NCBI GenBank assembly: GCA_023663365.1
Contig: JAMPHP010000006.1
Location: forward strand, 1 to 64,000
Source of the DNA: Muribaculaceae bacterium
GTDB lineage: Bacteria > Bacteroidota > Bacteroidia > Bacteroidales > Muribaculaceae
Direction of reading: 5' to 3'
Length of the DNA: 64,000 nucleotides
The notes under the pieces are model-generated. The model ran no database searches. It was not told the origin of the DNA and was given only the letters and a program-made list of their open reading frames with translations. Position numbers and translations under genes: made by a program. Shown in pieces: positions 3,981 to 22,690 of this stretch. Within the stretch, counting starts at the first letter, position 1; every line of letters starts with the position of its first letter.

Positions 3981-6134
3981 ATGTATTACACCAAATTACT
4001 TAAAGCTGCCTTTGCCATTGCACTTATTGGCATCGCCGCAGCTTGCTCCGATGAGCCGGAGAGCGGCGTCGGAGATGCCGACAATATGTCGGTGACAATT
4101 AAGCCCGACGGCTCCGCTACGGGTGATGCCGTATTCTCGAAAATCGATGGCGAAACTTTTTTTCTTGACTATGTGAAATACCTGATTGTAGACTCACATC
4201 TCGAAATTATAGGTTATGACCCCGTGGAACTACCGGCTAAGCCCAAGCTCTATGCAACGGTGAATATCGCCAACGCAGAATATAAAACGCGAATTATTCG
4301 AGACAAGGCTTTTAAATCTACTAAGATTAAAGAGATTGTGATACCCTCTTCGATAACTGAAATTGGTACATCAGCATTCGAAGAGTGCACTTCCTTAACT
4401 AGCATTGATATACCTTCTTCCGTAACGAAAATAGGGATTGGCGCATTCGAACATTGTACTTCGTTAACGAGCATCAAGATACCCTCTTCAGTAACGACAA
4501 TTGAGAAATCTACATTCTTGGATTGTAGGGCCTTAACCAGTATTGAGATACCACAGTCGGTGTCGGAAATTGGAGCAGAAGCATTCTGCGATTGCTATCA
4601 CCTAACAAGTATTGCTATCCCCTCTTCGGTAACGAAAATAGGAGAATTTGCGTTCTTCTGGTGCAATTCCTTAACCAACATTGATATACCTTCTTCCGTA
4701 ACGAAAATAGAGATTGCCGCATTCGAACATTGTATTTCGTTAACGAGCATCAAGATACCTTCTTCCGTAACGAAAATTGAGGAATCTACATTCTTTGATT
4801 GTAGGGCCTTAACCAGTATTGACATTCCTACTTCGGTAACGCAAATAGGGGATAGAGCATTCGCTGCTTGTGACTCTCTTACCAGTATTGACATTCCTAC
4901 TTCGGTAACGCAAATAGGGGAGGCTGCATTCGCTTCTTGTGAATCTCTTACCAGTATTGACATACCATCTTCAATAAAATATATTAGTAGTTCAGCATTC
5001 GAAAATTGTACGTCCTTAACAAGCATTGACATACCTTCATCGGTAACGCGAATAGGTCTTTCAGCATTTGAAAATTGCACGTCCTTAACTAACATTGACA
5101 TCCCTTCATCGGTAACTGAAATAGATGGATCTGTATTCAAGGGTTGCACGTCCTTAACAAGCATTGACATACCTTCATCGGTAACGCGAATAGGTAGTTC
5201 AGCATTCGAAAATTGTACGTCCTTAACAAGCATTGACATACCTTCATCGGTAACGCGAATAGGTCTTTCAGCATTTGAAAATTGCACGTCCTTAACTAAC
5301 ATTGACATCCCTTCATCGGTAACTGAAATAGATGGATCTGTATTCAAGGGTTGCACATCTTTAATTAACATTGAAATACCTTCATCGGTAACGGAAATAG
5401 GTCTTTCAGCATTTGAAAATTGTACATCCTTAACTAATATTAACATACCTTCATCGGTAACGTATATAGGTATTTCAGCATTCGAAGGTTGCATGTCCTT
5501 GACAAGTTTTGATATACCTTCGTCGGTAACAGGAATCGGTGGGTCTGCATTTAAAGGTTGCACATCTTTAATCAACTTAGATATACCTTCATCGGTAACA
5601 GTAATTAACAGTTCTGCATTTAAAGGCTGTTCGTCCTTAACTAATGTCAATTTACCTAACACCTCAATTAAAATAGAGGAGTCCGCATTTGAAGGCTGTA
5701 CGTCCTTAACAAGCATTGATATTCCTTCTTCGTTAGGAATTAATGGCAGTTCTTTGTTCAAAGGGTGTACGAGTTTAACGAATGTAACGATACATAGTCA
5801 GATAATACTTACCAAGTCAATTTTTGAAGGTTGTACAGCTTTAACTAATGTCCAAATGGATGGGGTGCAAAAGATTAGTCAGTCAGCATTTAAAGGCTGT
5901 ACATCCTTAACCAGTATCACTATTCCTCCTTCAATAAAGGAGATGGTGCCTAGTGCATTCAGTGGGTGTACTTCTTTGAGCGAAGTTACATTTAGAGGAA
6001 AATACCCTGTTAATATATATGGTGTCTTCGACAGCGGAATTAGCGGTCGTGTAGCTTATGTGCCGGAAGCAACTTTGGATTTATATATCAAAGAGGGGTA
6101 TCGCGACTATTTCGATGAAATAAAGCCTATATAA
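3981..6134 (+). CDS. BspA-type leucine-rich repeat surface lipoprotein
   Basis: A 717-aa secreted protein. It starts with a lipoprotein signal ending in 'IGIAAACSDEPES', so it is probably anchored at the outer membrane. From about residue 115 to 690 it consists almost wholly of 23-residue LRR_5/TpLRR units of the form 'LTSIDIPSSVTKIG..AFE.C'. Such proteins are typically adhesins or host-binding proteins in Bacteroidetes; the partner here is unknown. The DNA is AT-richer than its neighbours. Several units are almost identical at base level: a block near 5033-5149 recurs at about 5240-5356, pointing to recent repeat expansion. The stop codon overlaps the first possible start of the next gene, suggesting translational coupling. 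Confidence 0.9.
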   Translation: MYYTKLLKAAFAIALIGIAAACSDEPESGVGDADNMSVTIKPDGSATGDAVFSKIDGETFFLDYVKYLIVDSHLEIIGYDPVELPAKPKLYATVNIANAEYKTRIIRDKAFKSTKIKEIVIPSSITEIGTSAFEECTSLTSIDIPSSVTKIGIGAFEHCTSLTSIKIPSSVTTIEKSTFLDCRALTSIEIPQSVSEIGAEAFCDCYHLTSIAIPSSVTKIGEFAFFWCNSLTNIDIPSSVTKIEIAAFEHCISLTSIKIPSSVTKIEESTFFDCRALTSIDIPTSVTQIGDRAFAACDSLTSIDIPTSVTQIGEAAFASCESLTSIDIPSSIKYISSSAFENCTSLTSIDIPSSVTRIGLSAFENCTSLTNIDIPSSVTEIDGSVFKGCTSLTSIDIPSSVTRIGSSAFENCTSLTSIDIPSSVTRIGLSAFENCTSLTNIDIPSSVTEIDGSVFKGCTSLINIEIPSSVTEIGLSAFENCTSLTNINIPSSVTYIGISAFEGCMSLTSFDIPSSVTGIGGSAFKGCTSLINLDIPSSVTVINSSAFKGCSSLTNVNLPNTSIKIEESAFEGCTSLTSIDIPSSLGINGSSLFKGCTSLTNVTIHSQIILTKSIFEGCTALTNVQMDGVQKISQSAFKGCTSLTSITIPPSIKEMVPSAFSGCTSLSEVTFRGKYPVNIYGVFDSGISGRVAYVPEATLDLYIKEGYRDYFDEIKPI
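5033..5356 (+). repeat. recently duplicated LRR block (207-bp period)
   Basis: About 117 bases from 5033 recur nearly exactly from 5240, an offset of 207 bases, which is three 69-base LRR units. A shorter exact repeat with 69-base offset lies around 4812-4922. The period keeps the reading frame. Confidence 0.8.
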
Positions 6135-6928
6135 TGCGCCTTAGTTACTCTTACAAACCCTCGCACTACCGAAATGCAATTCGGTGGTGTGAGGGTCGCC
6201 AATCAGACATGGGAAAATATCTTTATCACTATACCTCGATGTATAATGCGTTCCAAATCATTAATATGGGGAAGTTGCGTTTTTCGAGACCCGCCGACTC
6301 TAATGATATAAACGAAAGGGTGCGGGATATTTACGTTGATTTTAAAGACGATGCTTCAGAAGAAGATCTTGACCGCGCCTATCAGGAAGCCGTTGAAAAA
6401 ATCCACAAATATGTTCAATTGAGTTTTACCGAGAAGGGTAAGCGCGAAGGATATGCCATACCGGCGATGTGGGGCCATTATGCCGATCGAGGGCGCGGTG
6501 TATGTTTTGTTTTCGACAAAAGTGCTCTGTTGAGAAAATTACCAACCGGAGCCCATTATGCACCTGTTGAGTATAAAGGAGTATATGGAGAGGGTTATAC
6601 TTCCTCGGTAATTTTTGATGGAAACGAAGACTTGCTAAAGCTATTTTTCACAAAATCGGACGATTGGTCATATGAGCAGGAGTTTAGAGTGATATATGAA
6701 TGTCGCAATCCGAATATCCCTAAGTATGTTTCGATAAAAGAAGCTCTTATAGCTGTTATCATACATTACCCTGCCGGTACACCTGCCGATAAAAGTGTAG
6801 TGAATTCAACGGAGTATATTGCACTGAAAGAAGCAATGCCCAGAGTGCCGATAAAGGTTATAGGCGATTTTTTAGGTGCAATGCCGTTGACTGCCGAAGA
6901 TGGAGAGCCAACTCTCCCGCTGGAGTAA
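6134..6928 (+). CDS. DUF2971 domain protein
   Basis: 264 aa as read from the ATG at 6134, which overlaps the stop of the LRR gene (TAATG). A more likely start is the ATG at 6209, because the family begins with the 'YLYHYTS..NAFQIINMGKLRFSRP' block found just after it; that gives about 239 aa. The family signatures 'AMWGHYADRGRGVCFVFDK' and 'EQEFRVIYEC' are visible. The molecular function of DUF2971 is not established to my knowledge. Such genes often sit in accessory regions. The gene is AT-richer than the flanks and lies with the LRR gene between repeat copies at 3388-3570 and 7041-7096. Confidence 0.8.
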   Translation: MRLSYSYKPSHYRNAIRWCEGRQSDMGKYLYHYTSMYNAFQIINMGKLRFSRPADSNDINERVRDIYVDFKDDASEEDLDRAYQEAVEKIHKYVQLSFTEKGKREGYAIPAMWGHYADRGRGVCFVFDKSALLRKLPTGAHYAPVEYKGVYGEGYTSSVIFDGNEDLLKLFFTKSDDWSYEQEFRVIYECRNPNIPKYVSIKEALIAVIIHYPAGTPADKSVVNSTEYIALKEAMPRVPIKVIGDFLGAMPLTAEDGEPTLPLE

Positions 6929-6965: not shown

Positions 6966-7096
6966 TGGCACAAGCCGAAATTCCGATGCCAAGGCTAAGG
7001 TCTTGGTGACCCGCGCTGCGGGTCAGTTGCGATTGAAGCCATTCCCCTGATTTTCGGCTTGTGCCGCCCCGCTATGCCGCTTCTGTGGCGAGGGCT
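6966..7096. repeat. hairpin-rich repeat overlapping the portal gene 3' end
   Basis: The bases at 7041-7096 closely match 3515-3570 (shared core CGGCTTGTGCCGCCCC and CGCTTCTGTGG). An inverted half-copy (GGCACAAGCCGAAATTCC) lies near 6967-6984. Between them is a perfect TGACCCGC-GCT-GCGGGTCA hairpin (7007-7025). The last eight or so codons of the portal-like gene lie inside this repeat. Confidence 0.6.
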
Positions 7097-8370
7097 TTTT
7101 CGTTGCGAGCTTCGGTAAAAGCGGTGAAGGTGTCGAAGATGTCGGCCAGGGCTATGGTGGCGTTTCTGATTCGTGCATCGAGCATCTCCACACCTCTTGC
7201 GCTGCCTTCGGAGCGACCGAGCAGGGCATCGCCCACGCCTGAGATGTCCTCGAATAGCTTCATCTGGAGGTCGAGGAGCTGATATGCGCCCGTGCCGGCG
7301 GTGTTGGTCACTACCTGCTGCGGCAGGTGTGTGCCTTTGCCGGTGATGGGGATTACGCCGTCGGAGCGCGCCCACACCTTTGTCACCTGCTCCCACTTGA
7401 GGCCTGCGGGGCGCTGGTCCTCGGGGAAGAGTAGCACGCCTTTGGCGGAGCTCGTCATCATCTTGTCAATCATCACTATGAGGCGGTTGATGTAGCGCTG
7501 CTGGTCGATCACGTCCTCGACGAATGAGTGCACCTCGCCGTCGGTGAGAGGGTAGAGCTTTACAACGAAGGGGTGCGAGCGATGGGCGAATGGCGAGTCG
7601 TGCTCGGCGAGCACGGTGCCGTCGGGAGCGAGCCATCGGCAGTGCCACGCGAAGTCGAGGCCTGCAGCCCGCGAGCCTTCGCGGCAGTCGTAGGTCCATA
7701 CCTCAATCACGCGGCAGCGGTCGTCGGAGCGTGCGTTGAAGAACTCCTCGGCATCGTCGGGCTCGCCTATTGCTATGGTGCCGCCGTAGCCGCTGTCGGT
7801 GATAGAGTAGATATGCCTCAGCTTCGCCTGACGAGCCTTCGATGTGCCTGCGAAGCGGTCGATGAGCTCGGGGAAGCTCATGTCGTGGAGCATACCCACG
7901 AGCTCTATATCCCATCCGCGCGGGTCGCGGAAATCGTTGACGAAGAAGCGGCGCGGATCCACGTTGTCGACGCGTATGCCCCGGCAGCCGCGTCGCGTGT
8001 CGCCGGCTACGCGCTGGATGGCGCAGCCCGATATGAGAAACTCTTCGAGCGCGCGGCTGTCGAGCTCGGGCAGGGCATTGCGGCGAGCTATGGACGCCAG
8101 GGAGCCGGTGCTGTAGCTGCCATCCTCGGCGGCACGTGTGCGGAAGCGCCCCACGACGGTCTTCACGAGTTGGCGGATGAGGTTGTTCGACAGCGGTTTG
8201 GCACCGCTTTCAATCAGAAGCTGCTCTTCGGGCAGCGAGCGGCCCGAGCTGTCGGTAACGATGTCGGCCCACTGCTTGCCGTAGGTGTAGTTTTTGTATC
8301 GTTCGCGCCTCTGCCTGAGGTCGGCGGCGGCGCTCCAGGCTCTGTAGGCTTTTTCGAGAGTAGTGTTCAT
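7072..8370 (-). CDS. phage portal-like protein
   Basis: 432 aa. The N-terminal part ('LEKAYRAWSAAADLRQRRERYKNYTYGKQW'-like helix, then 'KPLSNNLIRQLVKTVVGRFR') and the late part ('QQRYINRLIVMIDKMMTSSAKGV', 'LFEDISGVGDALLGR') look like P22-type portal proteins of tailed phages. These form the ring through which DNA enters the capsid. It is shorter than P22 portal (about 725 aa) and ends in 'ALATEAA', encoded within a dispersed repeat, so the native C terminus may be lost. The start overlaps the stop of the upstream 182-aa gene (ATGA). No terminase is seen. Portal call by pattern only. Confidence 0.7.
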   Translation of the reverse strand: MNTTLEKAYRAWSAAADLRQRRERYKNYTYGKQWADIVTDSSGRSLPEEQLLIESGAKPLSNNLIRQLVKTVVGRFRTRAAEDGSYSTGSLASIARRNALPELDSRALEEFLISGCAIQRVAGDTRRGCRGIRVDNVDPRRFFVNDFRDPRGWDIELVGMLHDMSFPELIDRFAGTSKARQAKLRHIYSITDSGYGGTIAIGEPDDAEEFFNARSDDRCRVIEVWTYDCREGSRAAGLDFAWHCRWLAPDGTVLAEHDSPFAHRSHPFVVKLYPLTDGEVHSFVEDVIDQQRYINRLIVMIDKMMTSSAKGVLLFPEDQRPAGLKWEQVTKVWARSDGVIPITGKGTHLPQQVVTNTAGTGAYQLLDLQMKLFEDISGVGDALLGRSEGSARGVEMLDARIRNATIALADIFDTFTAFTEARNEKALATEAA

Positions 8371-12447: not shown

Positions 12448-15400
12448 TTAGTTCTTCGCTGCCGCCGAGGCTCGGAAAGCGCTCGGGCTCACACCGGCGC
12501 GCTCCTTGAAGAAGGTGCTGAAGTATCGCTGCGAGCTGAAGCCCAGCATGTCGGATATTTCAGCCATGGTGTGAGAGCCGTCGGTAAGGAGCTCTTTGGC
12601 TTTCCGGAAGCGGCAGTCGGCGATGTAAGCGCCTATGGTCTGGCCGCTTATATCCTTGAACTTGGAGTAGAGCGCTGAGCGGCTCGATGCCATTTTCTCC
12701 ACTATGGTGTCGACCCCGAAGTCGGGGTTCGATATATTTTCGGATATTATCTTATTGATTTTAAACATGAAAGTCTCGTCGGCGTTGGTGCGTGCCTTGC
12801 GGGGAGTCTCGGGTGCGGATTCGGGCGAGGCGTAGCGGCGGCGTATCACCGAGCGCGTGTGCAGCAGATTGCGGCAGCGTGCCATGAGCACGGCCAGGTC
12901 GAAGGGCTTTGCAAGATAAGAGTCGGCACCGGCCTCGTAGGCATTCTCGAGCGTGGAGCCTTCCTTGAGTGCGGTGAGCAGTATCACGGGTATGTGGCTG
13001 GTCTCGGGCGATTTCTTCACGGCGTGGCACAGCTCGAGGCCGCTCATGAAGGGCAGACGCAGCGACGAAATCACGATGTCGGGTTGGTATTGACGGATGA
13101 GCAGGAGGGCATCCTTGCCGTTGAAGGCATGGAGCACCTTGCCGAAGAACTCGGAGAGCTGCATTGCCACAAACATGCACAGGTCATTGTCTTCCTCCAC
13201 CACTATCGCGGTCATTGCCGAAGTGTCGATGTCGGCCACCAGAGGCTCGATTTCGGCGGGCGGGTTTGTGGCCTCGCTGTGGCGGCGGCGCGTGTAGGCC
13301 TCGGCGGCGGGAGCGCCGGCTGCGGGGATTTCAAACCACACGGTCACTCCGGGCAGGTCGTCGTTGTTGTACGCGCCTATGCTTCCGCCCTGCAGCTCGA
13401 CGATGCTCTTGGCGTAGGCAAAGGCGAGGCTGTCGGTAAACTTGGCGTTTTCGTCGTGGAAATATTTCGAGAAAAGCTCTCGCAGGGTGTCGGGATCGAG
13501 GTTTTCGCCCGCATCACTCACCGACACTCTGATGAAGTTGTCGCGCATCACCGTGCGCACCTCCACCGTGGCATGGTCGGGCGAGCGGCGGATGGCGTTG
13601 CGGAGCAGGATTTCGATTACAGAGCCGAGGCGCCCGCGGTCGTAGACCGCCGGGAACATATCCTGCGACGGGATATACACGCAGTTGAGGTGCTTGAGGT
13701 CGATGTCGGAGCGGAGATTTGCTATGGAGTCGTCGATTGAGCGGGTGATGTCGTGGGTGGTGAGCTCCTTGTCGGCCGATGCGGCGGCGGTCACATTGTG
13801 CAGCTCAAGGGCCATGTCGATGGTGTCGCGCATCTTCTTGGTGTTGGAGTACACACGCTCGAGCTCGGGCAGAAGGTCGGTATGCTCGCCGGCGCGCAGT
13901 TTCTCGAGGGTGAGCTTGAGGGGAGCGTAAATCAGCGTAAGGGGGGTGCGCAGGGCATAGTTGGTGTTGACCAGGAAGGCCACCTCGCGCTCGAGGGTGT
14001 TGTGGCGGTATGTCTCGAGCTGCGATGCCAGCCGGGCCTTGCGCCTCTGTATGCGCTTCATCTCCCAGTAGATGAGCAGCGCTATGGTGAGTACGGCCAC
14101 TATGCCCCACATCCACGGAGAGCGGTACCACGGAGCCATCACCGCGAGGGTGACAAGGTGGTGAGGCTGTGTCCATGTGCCGTCGGGGCGCATACAGCTG
14201 AGGTTCACGTCGTAGTCGGCGCCGGGGTCGATGAAGCTCAGGTCGAGGCTGCGCGAGGAGGTCTCCAGGTTTTTCTCGCTGCCCTTGCCGCTCACGGTGT
14301 AGCGGAAGCGCTGCCTCCGCTGCGAGTTGCTGCCGTTGTCGATCACCGAGAGGCTGATGCCCGTGAAGTGGTCGGGCACCTTTATCACGCCGTCGTGAAT
14401 CTGGCTGTATGCCGACACGCCGTCAATCTCGAGCTCCGCGATGCTGAGCTCGGGGTCGATGTGGGAGGCGAGGATGGCGTCGACCTCGGCGGAGTTGACG
14501 CGCATAAGGCCGTAGATGCCGCCGAGGAGCACACGGCCATCGGCCGAGAGAGTGGCTCCGGCCTGGTACTCGTTGGGCGTGACGCCGTCGTTGATGCCAA
14601 AGGCCGCGAGATTTCCGTTGTCGAGGTTGCGCAAGTAAAGAGTGCGTGTGGTGGCTATCCACAGGCGTTTGTCGCCCTCGCATACCATCGCCGACACTCG
14701 CTCGTTGATGTCGGGGAGCTGAGTCATCTCGCCCGTCGATGTGTCGATGCAGGTCACGCCCTTGTCGGTGGCCACGAAGATGCGGTGGCGCCCGTCGTAG
14801 GCGGCGCTGTGGATGCGCGGTGCACGCGGAAGCCTGAAGAGCACGGTGTGCTTGGCGGTCACAGGGTCAAATTCGCTCACAAAGTCGGAACCGAAGCACA
14901 GCAGGCGCCCTACCTGGCTGTAGAAAGGCACGAGCGCACCCTCGGGTACGTCGGTCTCGATTGCCTTGGCCGGTGTTACCACCGTGCCGCTCTGCGGGTT
15001 GTAGGTGCTTATGTTGTTGCCGACGATGGCTATGAGGTTGTGCGAGAGGGTGCGGGCATGCATTGGCACGGCGCGGTTCGGGTTGTCGGCCCATAGCTGT
15101 GTGAGGTCGCCGGAAGCGGGTGAGAGAGCGCCGCTCTGCTTGTTGAGCAGGAAGAAGCCCTTGTCGAATGTGACCACAAGGAGGTGCTGCGGGTCGTAGC
15201 CCTCGATGTCGGTCACCTTCATGCCGGCTGTCGAGGGCACGGCCTCGAGCACACCGCTGCCGGGGCGGTAGATGAGTACGCCGTTGCCGTCGTCGCCTAC
15301 CCACACCTTGCCGTCGCTTTCGTCGAGCCACATCGAGGAGATGGCGGCGAAGGGAGCCTTGCGGCCCGACTGGAAGGTGTGTATTGCCACCGGGAGCACG

Positions 15401-16353
15401 GTCACGGCACCGTCGCGCACGGTGCCGGCGTAGAGGTTGTGATGGCGGTCGGTGTAGAGGCTCGTCACGGCACCGAGCGAGCCGAGGGCACTGCGGGGAG
15501 GCATGTCCTCGAAGCTGCCGGTGGCGGGGTCGTAGATCGAGATGCCGCCGCCGTCGGTGGCTATCCAGATGCGCTTGTCGTGCTCGATGATGTCGAGGAT
15601 GATGTTCGAGGGCAGGGCCGAGTTCGAGGTGTTGAGCGAGAAGAGGCACGTGCCTGCGCGGTCGTAGGCCTGAAGCCCCTCGCCGTAGGGCGATACATAG
15701 AGTACACCGCCGGCATCTATAGTGCTGGCCATGATGTGCTTGTCGGCAATGCCGGGCATACGCGTCACCGTGGCGTGGGTGCGGTCGAAGAGCCACATGC
15801 CATCCCAGCGGGTGGCAAGGACGTAGAAGTCGGTGCCGCGGCGGTGTATGTCGGTATAGTAGAATTTCGACCCTCCTTTCACCTGCAGCAGGGCAGTGGT
15901 GCCCGATGCGAAGTCGTGGTAGAAAATGCGGCCTGCACCGCCGAGCAGCATACCGTTGCCCTCTTCGTGGAAAGAGCGAACGTTGACCTGCTTGCCATCG
16001 GCCGTAATGCGCTCGAACGAGTTGGTCTGCTCGTCGTAGTGCGCGAGCCCGTTCTCACCGGCCACCCACAGGCCGCCATAGGCATCGGTGTAGAGGGCGC
16101 GCACGGAGTTGTCGGTGATGGTGCTCTCGTTGTCGCGGTCGTGGTAGTAGTTCACCACGCCGTCGAAGTCGTAGCGGTTGAGGCCGAAGCGCGTGCCTAT
16201 CCACACGAAGCCGCGGCCGTCGCGGGCAAGGCAGGTCACATTGCTGTGTGAAAGCCCTTGGTCGAGCGATACCTTGCGGCATAGATATTCGGTGGCGAAA
16301 GCTGCCGCTGCCGCGTGGATGATTATCAGGAGAACCGCAAGGAGTCGTTTCAT
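12448..16353 (-). CDS. hybrid two-component system regulator with degenerate phosphorelay
   Basis: 1301 aa. The order is: signal peptide; periplasmic two-bladed Reg_prop propeller sensor (about 25-640); Y_Y_Y domain (about 645-735); one membrane helix near 745-768; HisKA-like dimerisation region; HATPase-like region; receiver (about 1045-1165); AraC-type HTH (about 1200-1297). Normally such HTCSs bind a glycan fragment and switch on the nearby PUL. Here the H-box reads 'NTNYALRTPLTLIY', with Tyr799 where His is expected. The receiver reads 'IVISSLRLPFMSG', with Ser1097 where the phospho-acceptor Asp is expected. The ATPase G2 box is also poor ('DSLAFAYA'). It lies 3 bases behind the sialidase gene, so the two are likely co-transcribed. 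Confidence 0.92.
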   Translation of the reverse strand: MKRLLAVLLIIIHAAAAAFATEYLCRKVSLDQGLSHSNVTCLARDGRGFVWIGTRFGLNRYDFDGVVNYYHDRDNESTITDNSVRALYTDAYGGLWVAGENGLAHYDEQTNSFERITADGKQVNVRSFHEEGNGMLLGGAGRIFYHDFASGTTALLQVKGGSKFYYTDIHRRGTDFYVLATRWDGMWLFDRTHATVTRMPGIADKHIMASTIDAGGVLYVSPYGEGLQAYDRAGTCLFSLNTSNSALPSNIILDIIEHDKRIWIATDGGGISIYDPATGSFEDMPPRSALGSLGAVTSLYTDRHHNLYAGTVRDGAVTVLPVAIHTFQSGRKAPFAAISSMWLDESDGKVWVGDDGNGVLIYRPGSGVLEAVPSTAGMKVTDIEGYDPQHLLVVTFDKGFFLLNKQSGALSPASGDLTQLWADNPNRAVPMHARTLSHNLIAIVGNNISTYNPQSGTVVTPAKAIETDVPEGALVPFYSQVGRLLCFGSDFVSEFDPVTAKHTVLFRLPRAPRIHSAAYDGRHRIFVATDKGVTCIDTSTGEMTQLPDINERVSAMVCEGDKRLWIATTRTLYLRNLDNGNLAAFGINDGVTPNEYQAGATLSADGRVLLGGIYGLMRVNSAEVDAILASHIDPELSIAELEIDGVSAYSQIHDGVIKVPDHFTGISLSVIDNGSNSQRRQRFRYTVSGKGSEKNLETSSRSLDLSFIDPGADYDVNLSCMRPDGTWTQPHHLVTLAVMAPWYRSPWMWGIVAVLTIALLIYWEMKRIQRRKARLASQLETYRHNTLEREVAFLVNTNYALRTPLTLIYAPLKLTLEKLRAGEHTDLLPELERVYSNTKKMRDTIDMALELHNVTAAASADKELTTHDITRSIDDSIANLRSDIDLKHLNCVYIPSQDMFPAVYDRGRLGSVIEILLRNAIRRSPDHATVEVRTVMRDNFIRVSVSDAGENLDPDTLRELFSKYFHDENAKFTDSLAFAYAKSIVELQGGSIGAYNNDDLPGVTVWFEIPAAGAPAAEAYTRRRHSEATNPPAEIEPLVADIDTSAMTAIVVEEDNDLCMFVAMQLSEFFGKVLHAFNGKDALLLIRQYQPDIVISSLRLPFMSGLELCHAVKKSPETSHIPVILLTALKEGSTLENAYEAGADSYLAKPFDLAVLMARCRNLLHTRSVIRRRYASPESAPETPRKARTNADETFMFKINKIISENISNPDFGVDTIVEKMASSRSALYSKFKDISGQTIGAYIADCRFRKAKELLTDGSHTMAEISDMLGFSSQRYFSTFFKERAGVSPSAFRASAAAKN

Positions 16354-16356
16354 GGT

Positions 16357-17538
16357 TTAGAAAAGTTTGTCGAGATTGATACGGGTATACCACAGGCGGA
16401 AGCCGCCGAGCGATGAATTTTCTTCGGTGAGTACGCCCAGGCGATTGTCGGGCAGGAGGGTAAGGGCCGAGTAAGCGCTGCCGGAGGGGCATATCTCCAT
16501 GAAGCGCTGCCATGTGTCGCCGAGGTTGTCGGAGTAGAAGAGCGACACGTTGGTGCGCCGGTTCTTGCTGTAGCACAGGCTGTGGATGAGCCGGCCTGAG
16601 GGCAGGGCGATGATGTCGCCGTTGATTGCGGGATCGTGGAGGGTGCCCGATGGCTCGGGAGCCGTCCAGGTGCGGCCTCCGTCGGAGCTGCGGGCGAATT
16701 TGCGCATCCCTTTGTCGCGGTTGCGTATGCTCATCAGGAGTTCGCCGCCGGGCAGCTCGAGCATTTTTGCCTCATCGCCGTAGGTGTCTACGGCCACAGG
16801 CATCGCTTCCCATGTGTGGCCGCCGTCGGTGCTGCGGCAGGGGTAGCAGGCGAGCTCCACGATTTCGTTCATGTTGGGGCGCGTCACCAGCACAAACCAC
16901 ATAGTGCCGTCGGCGCAGGTGAGGATGCGCCCCGAGCTTGCAAACGCGGTGATGGCAGTGGCCGGTGCCGCGCCTTCGGTCTGGCTGAAGAGCCCGGGAG
17001 TGATGTCGACGGGTTTCGACCATGTGCGGCCGCCGTCGGAGCTGCGGCACACATTAATATAAGCGTGGTCGCCGGGGACTGACTGCCACAGACCGTTGCC
17101 GTGCGTCATCACGCACACGAGGTCGCCTGAGATGGAGTCGATGCCAAGGGCCGGGTCGCCGTAGCCTCCGCCCTCGTCGTTGACCACCACATCGACGGCA
17201 TCGCTCCAGCTTCGGCCACCGTCGGCCGAGGTGCGGCACACCACGTCGATGCGGCCGGGCAGGTCCTCATTGCTGTCGAGCCTGCGGTCGGCCACAGCCA
17301 CAAGGGTGCCGTCGCGGAGGGTGGCCAGGGCCGGGATGCGGTAGAATTTCGACACGCCGTCGCCGCCTGAAAAGAGCATAGCCCGGGCTTCTACAGCCGG
17401 GTGGTCGAGCCCCGGAATACGTGCTGCCTGTGCCTTCTGAGTGCATAAAGCGGCCAATGCAAGGAGTGTGGCCGTGTACACACTCCTGCGCGCTTGTGCA
17501 CAGAAGTCGGAAATCGTGGAAAGAGCTTTTTTGAACAT
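16357..17538 (-). CDS. sialidase (GH33), exported
   Basis: 393 aa from the ATG at 17538. The frame is open to 17634, but the signal peptide ('ARRSVYTATLLALAALCTQKAQA') only makes sense from the downstream start. It cleaves terminal sialic acids. The FRIP-type motif is 'FYRIPALATLRDG'. Asp boxes are 'SADGGRSWSD', 'SSDGGRTWSK', 'STDGGHTWEA', 'SSDGGRTWTA' and a weaker 'YSDNLGDTWQ'. Exo-sialidase family GH33 is the natural assignment. It is first in an operon with the HTCS and divergent from the PUL. A TATATTTG -7 box lies at 17599-17606 on the minus strand. Confidence 0.92.
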   Translation of the reverse strand: MFKKALSTISDFCAQARRSVYTATLLALAALCTQKAQAARIPGLDHPAVEARAMLFSGGDGVSKFYRIPALATLRDGTLVAVADRRLDSNEDLPGRIDVVCRTSADGGRSWSDAVDVVVNDEGGGYGDPALGIDSISGDLVCVMTHGNGLWQSVPGDHAYINVCRSSDGGRTWSKPVDITPGLFSQTEGAAPATAITAFASSGRILTCADGTMWFVLVTRPNMNEIVELACYPCRSTDGGHTWEAMPVAVDTYGDEAKMLELPGGELLMSIRNRDKGMRKFARSSDGGRTWTAPEPSGTLHDPAINGDIIALPSGRLIHSLCYSKNRRTNVSLFYSDNLGDTWQRFMEICPSGSAYSALTLLPDNRLGVLTEENSSLGGFRLWYTRINLDKLF

Positions 17539-17598
17539 GGTATATCTTGACTGATTTAGGTATATAAGGCGTATATGTCGCTGATTTCGTTTGCAATG

Positions 17599-17606
17599 CA
17601 AATATA
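17599..17606 (-). promoter_or_regulatory. -7 box of the sialidase-HTCS operon
   Basis: Minus-strand TATATTTG, 61 bases before the sialidase start. The 302-base gap 17539-17840 carries this and the divergent PUL promoter. It is AT-rich and is the expected binding site for the AraC-type output domain. Confidence 0.45.
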
Positions 17607-17714
17607 GAAATAATGCACGGCGCACTATGTTCAAATTTGTGTGGATTTATACGCTTTTTAATTGCAGCACAACATTGGTGTACAAAATTAGATATAATTT
17701 GGAAAATAACAAAC

Positions 17715-17744
17715 ATTGTCAAATATTTTCATATCCTAATTTTG
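17715..17744 (+). promoter_or_regulatory. promoter of the PUL (forward)
   Basis: ATTG at 17715-17718, an 18-base spacer and TAATTTTG at 17737-17744. The 5' leader to the ATG at 17841 would be about 90 bases. Confidence 0.5.
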
Positions 17745-17840
17745 CAGTGTCGATAGCGAAAAGCGCGTCGGCAATCCAAACCTTACCACGAAAAAACCTT
17801 ATTCTGATACTCTATACCTAAAACCATTCCTTTTTATTTT

Positions 17841-20182: not shown

Positions 20183-22690
20183 ATGAATAAAGGCCTCTTG
20201 CTCGCGTGCGCTCTCTGCGCAGGCTCTATCGGCAGCGCTTTCGGCGTGGCCACAAACTATGCACTCACCCTCGCGCCCGACGGCTCGGTGAACTGCGGCC
20301 ACGTCCATAAGCTCGACGGAGCTTCGACCTACACCATGCAGCTGTGGTTCAATGCCGCGCAGTGGACCGAAGGCGCAAACCTCCTCTCGGCAGGCTCCGA
20401 CTGGAGCATCGCCCTTGGCCCCGAAGGCACTCTCGTGTATACTGCCGGCGGCTCAAGCGCCGACATCAAATCGGCCGACCTCAAGGCCGGCAACTGGTGC
20501 CAGCTCACTCTCATCGCCGACAAGGATGCCGGCAAAGCCATCGTCAACGGTGGCACTCCCGCCTCCCTGGCAAAGCTCCCCGCGATAGCCGCCTCGAGTT
20601 CCGACTTTATCATCGGTGGCGGCTTCGACGGTCGCATCGACGAAGTGCGCCTCTGGAACGACGTGCTCTCCGACGAGTTCGACTACTTCATCAAGAACAC
20701 TCTCAACCGCTGGAACCCTCAGCTCGAGGCTCTCGCGGCATACTATAAGTTCGACCAGGCCGACTGCCCTCATGTTGTGGAGCAGACTGCCATCTGGGCC
20801 GACAATACCACCGACTACAACAACCACGGCCTCATCAGCGGCACCGTGCGCAAGGAAGCTGTCACCGACAACGCTCCCATGCGCTACCGACTCAACGGTG
20901 CCTACACCGAGAACTCCCGCTTCTACGACCGCGCAATCCCCGCCGACCAGTACCTCCTGTCGAACGATCTCATCATCCTCGGCATTAGCGGTAGCTCCGA
21001 CGGTCACCTCGACTTCACCACTCCCAACAACCACCTCACCAACAACGGCGCCGTATGGCTGGCCGACTACGAAGGCCGCCCCGGCGTGATGAGCTTCGAC
21101 GGCAATGCCACAATGACAGCCGAGCCCAAGACTTTCAACCCCAAGAAGGGTCAGTACATCTTTGAGTCCTTCATCTTCATCGACGAGTGGGTCGAAGGCG
21201 CATACATCTTCCGCAAAGAGACAGCCGACGGCACCAAGGGTATCTCGCTCCGACTCGGAAATCCCGACAAGAAAGAAATGCTCGTGCGAGTCAATGGCCA
21301 CACCTACGGCGTGATTCAGAGCCAGAGCAAGATAGAGACCGGCAAGTGGTTCCACTTCGCCACATATCCCAATCCCAACCCCCAGCTCGCTCGATTTACC
21401 TACAACTTCTATGTCGATGGCAACGAGTGCATGGGCAGCAGCGGAAGCTCTGATAAAGAAATCTACACCGATGCCCCAGCCGGTGCCGAAGATCGCGAGC
21501 TCGTGCTTGGCGAAGGCTTCAAGGGCAAGCTCGACGAGACTGCCTTCTGGCTCTCCAACGGCCAGACCGGCTTTGCCTCGCACATGGCCAATGGCCTGCC
21601 TATGCCCGGCATAGGCGTGACACAGACCGCCGATGTGATGTTCAACGCCGAGGCATACTACCGCTTCGACCGCGAATCCGACCCCGGCTTCGACTACTAC
21701 TCGCAGGACAACTGGCTCGAAATCATGAAGAGCCCCTACGAAGGCTACGCCGGCTACGAAGTCCGCATCTCCGTGAAGAGCTGGACAGGCTGGGAGACAA
21801 CTATCCGTAACGCTGCCTACCGCACAAACTTTGCCCGCGACCTTGCACGCCTCGCTGAGAAATACGACGGTGTTGAGTTTGACCTCGAGTGGGTATACAA
21901 CGACGGCTGGAACACCGTGGCACTCCTCGTGGATGAGTGCCGTGAGCTCCTCCCTGCCGAAAAGTCGTTCATGGTATCGTGCCACAACGTCACCTACAGC
22001 TATCCCAAAGATAAGATGGGCGCGCTCGACGGTTTCACCTTCCAGCAGTACGGCCCGCAGAACGTTCACTTCGGCTACAACCACTTCGTGAACATGTGCA
22101 AGGCCTTCGTCAACTACGGCTTCGACCGACACAAAATCGTCACCTCCTACTCCACAACCACATCGAAGGGCTTCAAGAACGGTAGCGCCGTCACTCCCAT
22201 CAAGGGCGTGCGTAACGGCTTTTTCGACGAAGGCTTCGTGAACAAGGGCGACACAAACTTCAAGACCATCGACGGCTACGACTACTACTTCACCGACCCC
22301 CTCCAGACCTACAAGCGCGCACGCTACAGCGTCGACGAGGACTTCGGAGGCATCTTCTACTGGGACATGGGCAACGACGTGCCCGTAGAGCATAAGTACA
22401 ATATGGCCAAGTGGTGCTCCTATGCCCTCAACTCCAACGTCGAGAAGCACATCACAAAAGTCGACATCATCCGCACTTCGGGCATCGGCAATATTGTGGC
22501 CGATGGCACCGACGGCGCTCCCGGCATCGTGCGGCGAGGCGACACCGTAGCCGCTCAGGGCAGCATAGAAATCGTCACCCCCGCCGGGGTGACTGTTGCC
22601 GTCGGTAAGGGCAGCCTCAACATCGGCAGCCTCGCTCCGGGTCTCTACATAGCCCGCTCAGGCAAGAGCACTCTCAAATTCGTGAAATAA
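20183..22690 (+). CDS. LamG-GH18 glycosidase with C-terminal sorting tail
   Basis: 835 aa, exported. It has two LamG/concanavalin-like regions (about 30-190 and 280-485), then a GH18 domain (about 495-760). The catalytic line is 'YDGVEFDLEW' with Glu569 as general acid (DxxExDxE form). Late GH18 landmarks 'MVSCHNVTYSYP', 'GFTFQQYG' and 'FGGIFYWDMGNDVP' are present. GH18 enzymes of this type are chitinase-like or endo-beta-N-acetylglucosaminidases; next to sialidase, GH20 and GH2, an endo-acting role on host glycans is likely. The barrel appears short before the catalytic strand. It ends 'LAPGLYIARSGKSTLKFVK'. It is 20 bases before the lipoprotein gene. Confidence 0.8.
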   Translation: MNKGLLLACALCAGSIGSAFGVATNYALTLAPDGSVNCGHVHKLDGASTYTMQLWFNAAQWTEGANLLSAGSDWSIALGPEGTLVYTAGGSSADIKSADLKAGNWCQLTLIADKDAGKAIVNGGTPASLAKLPAIAASSSDFIIGGGFDGRIDEVRLWNDVLSDEFDYFIKNTLNRWNPQLEALAAYYKFDQADCPHVVEQTAIWADNTTDYNNHGLISGTVRKEAVTDNAPMRYRLNGAYTENSRFYDRAIPADQYLLSNDLIILGISGSSDGHLDFTTPNNHLTNNGAVWLADYEGRPGVMSFDGNATMTAEPKTFNPKKGQYIFESFIFIDEWVEGAYIFRKETADGTKGISLRLGNPDKKEMLVRVNGHTYGVIQSQSKIETGKWFHFATYPNPNPQLARFTYNFYVDGNECMGSSGSSDKEIYTDAPAGAEDRELVLGEGFKGKLDETAFWLSNGQTGFASHMANGLPMPGIGVTQTADVMFNAEAYYRFDRESDPGFDYYSQDNWLEIMKSPYEGYAGYEVRISVKSWTGWETTIRNAAYRTNFARDLARLAEKYDGVEFDLEWVYNDGWNTVALLVDECRELLPAEKSFMVSCHNVTYSYPKDKMGALDGFTFQQYGPQNVHFGYNHFVNMCKAFVNYGFDRHKIVTSYSTTTSKGFKNGSAVTPIKGVRNGFFDEGFVNKGDTNFKTIDGYDYYFTDPLQTYKRARYSVDEDFGGIFYWDMGNDVPVEHKYNMAKWCSYALNSNVEKHITKVDIIRTSGIGNIVADGTDGAPGIVRRGDTVAAQGSIEIVTPAGVTVAVGKGSLNIGSLAPGLYIARSGKSTLKFVK

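Follow-up and report, generated by a model that had tools for sequence, protein, structure and literature searches.

How can a hybrid two-component system (HTCS) regulator control its genes when the residues that carry the phosphate are gone? This question is raised by a gene at positions 12448 to 16353 (minus strand) of a 64,000-nucleotide stretch of Muribaculaceae bacterium DNA (the window; GenBank assembly GCA_023663365.1, contig JAMPHP010000006.1, positions 1 to 64,000; genome G000). It encodes a 1301-residue HTCS-type protein, designated L001 (P0001). By descent and architecture L001 is a hybrid two-component regulator of a polysaccharide utilization locus (PUL), and its phosphorelay has been dismantled. 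Judged from sequence, shape change alone is probably how it switches genes: the relay is lost, yet L001 and its closest relatives have been preserved next to a shared set of sugar-uptake genes.

The L001 reading frame is open over all 1301 codons, with zero internal stops. Pfam places Reg_prop, HATPase_c, Response_reg and HTH_18 above cut-off and HisKA below it, so that a Reg_prop propeller sensor and an AraC-type helix-turn-helix (HTH) domain, the pair by which an HTCS is recognized, lie on one chain. The periplasmic beta-propeller sensor (14284 to 16284, residues ~24-690, boundaries assigned here; Reg_prop 68.9 bits) is followed by the dimerization and histidine phosphotransfer (DHp) helices with an altered H-box (13804 to 14028, residues ~776-850), a degenerate catalytic ATP-binding (CA) domain (13264 to 13803, residues ~851-1030; HATPase_c still 43.5 bits), a receiver (REC) domain (12859 to 13215, residues ~1047-1165) and the HTH domain (12463 to 12741, residues ~1205-1297; HTH_18 68.1 bits), all on the minus strand. 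The initial annotation of the locus had called the sensor normal; Pfam reported no Y_Y_Y domain for L001 at an E-value of 0.1.

In an alignment of L001 with 33 other HTCS-type proteins, Tyr799 (codon 13957 to 13959, minus strand) occupies the phospho-acceptor His column ('NTNYALRTP' as against 'NINHELRTP') and Ser1097 (codon 13063 to 13065, minus strand) occupies the acceptor Asp column ('VISSLRLP' as against 'IISDVMVP'). No neighbouring His or Asp substitutes at either site. The G2 box of the CA domain reads 'TDSLAFAYA' in place of the 'GTGLGLAYS' of canonical relatives (former box DSLAFAYA, 13411 to 13434, minus strand) and the G1 box reads 'DAGEN'; the N-box Asn is kept. The HisKA score is 13.2 bits, as against 40.8 in the canonical sister L021 (cut-off 26.9). 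The His, the ATP-site motifs and the Asp are all lost. Both substitutions, the poor G2 box and the uninterrupted frame had been noted in the initial annotation, and all four are borne out.

By sequence, L001 lacks three properties of a functional HTCS, namely the phospho-acceptor His, intact ATP-binding boxes and the receiver phospho-acceptor Asp. Its kinase core, without the His and the ATP-site motifs but maintained according to sequence conservation and domain rates (see below), fits the definition of a pseudo-histidine kinase. Its receiver fits that of a pseudo-receiver, in which at least one of five active-site residues is lost: Asp is replaced by Ser, the remaining residues are present (E1054/D1055, T1127, Y1146 and K1149) and the fold matches. 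Only 47% of pseudo-receivers are reported to retain both coupling residues (PMC12632262), and the L001 receiver (Y1146/T1127) is among them. The other four HTCSs of G000 all retain His and Asp.

The same losses recur in relatives. The nearest of these, L019 (genome G034), is 56% identical to L001, carries the same Tyr and Ser and belongs to the same PUL; the two were the only proteins recovered from 50 genomes of the genus (E-value 1e-100). Wider searches found a match in 19 of 398 family genomes (at 1e-75) and in 11 of 393 genomes of the order (at 1e-90); scoring in these large searches, and in a second family search around G160, was limited to the top two candidates from each genome, so that further clade members may be missed. 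A single contig scan of genomes yielded one remote match, and the search around G160 and genus searches around G076, G213 and G059 returned clade members already known. The resulting clade has 10 members, seven without the His (L001 included) and three canonical sisters (L021, L023 and L024). The His is replaced by Tyr in L001, L019, L022 and L025, by Asn in L027, by Glu in L028 and by Leu in L029. At the Asp site the same seven proteins have Ser (L001, L019 and L029), Glu (L025), a deletion (L027) or the original Asp (L022 and L028). Both residues are present in the three sisters and in 24 of 24 further aligned HTCSs (L026, which lies outside the clade, the non-repeated proteins among L030-L048, and the four remaining HTCSs of G000).

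The His-less proteins are spread over five genera of the family. In a tree of full-length proteins they form one clade (support 100/100), with L021, L023 and L024 as sisters and more canonical proteins outside. A tree of the periplasmic part (residues 24-735; L029, which lacks this part, omitted) recovers the same clade of six (100/98), with neither L001 nor L019 flagged for unusual residue composition (L045 only). L001 is nested among canonical HTCSs in both trees and is an HTCS by descent. A single loss of the His in the common ancestor predicts the observed clade, which several losses inside it could in principle also have produced. The His was most likely lost first, because its loss is common to the clade and that of the Asp is not. 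Two members are reduced further. L027 (G178:C11:691755-695120) is missing the ATP-binding domain but retains the propeller, DHp, HTH and a remnant of the receiver. L029 (G006:C23:116149-117747) consists of a membrane helix, pseudokinase, Asp-less receiver and HTH; an adjoining gene of 433 codons, checked as a split-off sensor, had no significant match to L001.

Few other HTCS-like regions examined in the family lack the His. The cytosolic part of L001 was searched against 59 family genomes (at least 95% complete), giving 131 matches in 45 genomes, of which 123 were examined; those omitted were four rows for the other HTCSs of G000 (all canonical) and four partial rows ending before the HTH. 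The His could be scored in 121 of the 123, as L184 and L189 are cut by contig ends before the H-box, and an apparent gap in L104 contained a His once read further. It is present in 118 of the 121 regions, the others being L001, L022 and L187/L190 of G059; outside the clade it is missing in 1 of 119 scorable HTCS-like regions, a count that would be biased towards similar degenerate proteins by a query that is itself degenerate. Published rates are 0.9% for HisKA domains without the His and 2.0% for receivers without the Asp (PMC12632262).

In the case outside the clade, L190 (G059:C4:78411-82568, minus strand), the His is replaced by Asn and the receiver Lys by Gln, and a Glu lies at or close to the Asp position. 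A quick tree places L190 outside the clade, on a long branch beside the canonical L032/L034 (support 0.89). L190 appears to be a second, independent case, which points to a route that more than one lineage may have followed. Its gene is divergent from a plus-strand gene cluster.

Domain-specific rates indicate which parts of the protein are still constrained. Branch lengths were fitted separately for each domain on a fixed topology to compare four full-length His-less proteins (L001, L019, L022 and L025) with 12 canonical ones, using 100 column resamples. Relative to the propeller, the CA domain is accelerated 1.95-fold in the clade (1.56-2.36); DHp (1.12, 0.89-1.48), REC (1.08, 0.88-1.36) and HTH (0.80, 0.59-1.03) are not accelerated. 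The sensor, DHp, receiver and HTH are as constrained as in canonical relatives. The ATPase domain has decayed differently in different members, the lesions affecting G2 in L001, the N-box Asn in L022, G1 and the N-box in L025, and the whole domain in L027.

Between L001 and L019, the proportion of nonsynonymous differences (pN) is 0.277 and that of synonymous differences (pS) is 0.788, which is saturated, over 1265 codons; because the rate dS saturates as well, a whole-gene dN/dS is not computable. By domain, pN ranges from 0.17 (receiver) to 0.29 (propeller and CA). Because synonymous sites are saturated while pN is only 0.28, the L001 gene is evidently maintained, and because the propellers are 54% identical despite this saturation, the sensor is still under selection. 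The frame is open in L001, L019, L022, L025, L027 and L029.

The receiver of L001 may have kept a mechanical role. In canonical HTCSs the unphosphorylated receiver keeps the HTH off DNA (Gao et al. 2024, PMC11253607). This lock between receiver and DNA-binding domain is attributed to S/CHIP in the receiver together with D and K in the HTH, and disruption of the S/CH contacts lets the HTH bind DNA without phosphate (PMC11253607). For scoring, the motif was taken as S/CHIP in the loop between alpha3 and beta4, with D in alpha6 and K in alpha8. L001 has all of it: SHIP at residues 1119-1122 (12988 to 12999, minus strand) and, as candidate partner residues in the HTH, D1215 and K1231 or K1233 (either Lys may be the published one). 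The brake of L001 is, on this evidence, present and its usual release gone; for this reason, a mechanical release is the most economical interpretation.

The favoured model, which we consider rather more probable than its competitors taken together, is that L001 is a pseudo-HTCS, which descends from a two-component receptor but now acts as a one-component allosteric transmembrane regulator, with the receiver as a phosphate-free lock and switching driven by ligand. A glycan would bind the propeller dimer and shift the membrane helices together with DHp, and DHp would pass the shift on mechanically to the receiver. The receiver would still clamp the HTH through the SHIP...D...K contacts; the clamp would open without phosphate, and the HTH would then act at the divergent PUL promoter as activator or repressor. 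The initial annotation had proposed signalling by conformational change. The part of this proposal that dispenses with His-to-Asp transfer is supported by sequence and evolution, as neither the two phospho-acceptors nor the ATP site survive in L001 and the same losses are found in a relative that is maintained; the ligand-driven part is a matter of interpretation. A broader claim is evenly balanced between true and false, namely that this lineage converted a His-Asp phosphorelay receptor stepwise into a phosphate-free allosteric transcription factor, losing the His before the ATPase domain and the Asp, with selection keeping the receiver as a mechanical lock, and that the route may be repeatable, as L190 hints.

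Several observations weigh against this reading. Four of the seven His-less members (L025, L027, L028 and L029) are not beside this PUL in the stretches fetched, one of which ends ~3.4 kb from L029 on one side. Both L028, with an HTH that is out of frame and two in-frame stops within its matched region, and L029, which has no propeller, look partly decayed. Because of these four positions and two apparent decays, part of the clade may be on its way out. The full-length tree flags unusual residue composition in five of the seven (L001, L019, L027, L028 and L029) and long branches in L027, L028 and L029 (as well as in L045 and L048 outside the clade). The ratio of CA to propeller rates is also raised in the canonical sister trio (1.52, on short branches), so that some relaxation of CA may precede the loss of the His, and within the pair L001-L019 it is only 1.18, which does not suit a simple story. 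Among the seven, the complete lock motif occurs only in L001, the others having RHIP, QHIP, GHIP, or E/R at the partner sites; as the motifs of the canonical sisters are imperfect too, the lock argument is limited to L001. An AlphaFold prediction of its REC and HTH fragment (predicted local distance difference test score 92.2, predicted template modelling score 0.54) gives confident domains in an arrangement that is not confident, and 12aw_A, a solved HTCS REC and HTH chain found by sequence, was not among the best 50 matches in either fold search. Finally, a conserved promoter block shared with G034 (described below) was searched for in G059 and not found.

Two further possibilities raised in the initial annotation, constitutive activity and need for a partner kinase, are both weakened. 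L001 could have lost its switch altogether and act as an always-on activator or always-bound repressor with a vestigial sensor. This is unlikely, although loss of the Asp removes phospho-control, Glu, as found at this site in L025, can mimic phosphate in many regulators (PMC12632262), the non-consensus HTCS BT2391 represses (PMC11253607) and L029 does without a propeller. The conservation between the PUL-linked propellers of L001 and L019, described above, argues that the sensor is selected, and L001 has every residue of the lock that keeps the HTH inactive. Phosphorylation of L001 by a canonical HTCS or a kinase, or the formation of mixed dimers, would have candidate partners in the four canonical HTCSs of the same genome, and L022, which keeps its Asp, could still be phosphorylated. 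Ser1097, however, cannot take the normal Asp phosphate, the four HTCSs are encoded on other contigs, and tethered HTCSs are thought to be mutually insulated (PMC11253607). A partner kinase was rejected as the main route on these grounds and is quite improbable.

It is less credible still that Tyr799 or Ser1097 is itself an alternative phospho-acceptor. Recurrence of the residues (Tyr in L001, L019, L022 and L025; Ser in L001, L019 and L029) would fit such a role, but the ATP-site motifs are altered in all four Tyr proteins, in different places and least in L019 (where G2 keeps two Gly), Tyr gives way to Asn, Glu and Leu in L027, L028 and L029, and the His-to-Tyr protein DivL showed no autokinase activity (PMC4211667). 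Tyr phosphorylation was rejected because of these altered motifs, the DivL precedent and the failure of the clade to keep the Tyr. A young pseudogene or a sequencing error is just as hard to credit. In-frame stops do occur in L028 of the same clade; L001 itself is open over 1301 codons, shares its Tyr and Ser with a 56% identical protein from another genome, and has a pN of 0.28 against a pS of 0.79 and a conserved PUL position, and this explanation was rejected as contradicted by all four.

Pseudokinases and pseudo-receivers are each already known, and L001 can be compared with several known systems. With the HTCSs of Bacteroidota, such as BT4663 and BT4124, it shares the propeller, membrane helix, DHp, CA, REC and AraC HTH, the PUL position and the lock residues between REC and HTH; unlike them, it is without the phospho-acceptor His and acceptor Asp and has a ruined G2 box. 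The HTCS BT4236 of B. thetaiotaomicron also has its kinase His replaced (Gln848), and its authors suggest a phosphorylation-independent mechanism (PMC11253607). Its lock is non-consensus (CSIP-EK), whereas that of L001 is consensus (SHIP-DK), and in L001 the Asp is gone too. DivL of Caulobacter is a pseudokinase with Tyr550 for the His, whose core is a conformational module without kinase activity (PMC4211667). The His-to-Tyr change and the retained kinase core are alike in L001; DivL, however, reads the phosphorylated receiver of another protein, whereas the receiver of L001 is fused and Asp-less. Other pseudo-receivers and aspartate-less receivers (PMC12632262, PMC4395418) resemble that of L001 in having the receiver fold without the Asp and in keeping the Y/T coupling residues; that of L001 differs in sharing its chain with a pseudokinase that has a periplasmic sensor.

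SusR joins a periplasmic sensor to an HTH domain and is not known to contain DHp, CA or REC. L001 is like SusR-type regulators (PMC3878776) in being a PUL regulator without a phosphorelay. Unlike them, it has inherited DHp, CA and REC, with DHp and REC still constrained, and the presence of HATPase_c and Response_reg sets it apart from SusR-like one-component regulators.

If the favoured model is true, the phosphorelay of an HTCS is a removable part, and movement of the sensor can reach the DNA-binding domain through DHp and the receiver without phosphate. This would bear on signal transmission in canonical HTCSs and on the switching of bacterial pseudo-receivers, which has been called a mystery (PMC12632262). 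The clade supplies natural intermediates (His lost and Asp kept; ATPase deleted; sensor deleted) for finding the part that carries the signal. A maintained HTCS clade with both phospho-sites lost was not found among the open-licence PubMed Central (PMC) papers listed by the searches; the phosphorylation-site terms tried gave no match in PMC5061871, and lost phospho-sites are not discussed in the excerpts of PMC3404733 and PMC3878776. A maintained HTCS lineage with stepwise relay loss was likewise not found in the literature searched, and at least one single-protein precedent, BT4236, is in print. The suggestion in the initial annotation of a distinct mode of PUL control is plausible, with this precedent (PMC11253607) ahead of it.

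Directly upstream of the regulator is a sialidase-like gene (16357 to 17634, minus strand; BNR_2 77.4 bits), which matches the sialidase structure 8feb of the Protein Data Bank (E-value: 6.5e-57) and whose own start may lie further in. The start codon of the regulator is 3 nt past its stop, on the same strand. G034 and G059 have the same sialidase-regulator pair, overlapping by ATGA. Divergent from this pair is the PUL (17841 to 38528, plus strand), which according to Pfam encodes two proteins without a match, a LamG protein, another protein without a match, SusC, SusD, a sulfatase and members of glycoside hydrolase (GH) families GH20, GH2 and GH29. From this enzyme set, the substrate is likely to be a sialylated and sulfated host-type glycan. 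The gene order, as far as read, is common to G000, G034 and G059 and is shared in part by canonical relatives: those in G076 and G114 adjoin GH29, GH2, GH20 and sulfatase genes (and, in G076, SusD and SusC as well), the one in G073 adjoins the sulfatase, SusD, SusC and the genes preceding them, and on the G095 contig GH29 alone is next to the canonical regulator. The surroundings of L025 include a sulfatase-like gene and genes distantly related to that of one PUL protein.

The divergent promoter region contains a conserved 73-bp block (17674 to 17746), a candidate operator or promoter, in which 55 of 73 positions are identical to the same place in G034. It scores 28, whereas none of 200 resampled pairs exceeded 14.5, and synonymous sites of the regulator are saturated between the same genomes.

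Within the PUL, the gene at 20183-22690 encodes a protein in which Pfam marks two stretches of Laminin_G_3 and, below cut-off, a weak match to GH18; relatives precede SusC in G034, G059 and G073. On the other side of the regulator, ~4 kb away, an open reading frame at 7072-8370 (minus strand) matches a P22-like phage portal protein and may be a prophage remnant. Two genes at 3981-6928 have a G+C content of 40-43%, as against 57% for the window, and were possibly acquired.

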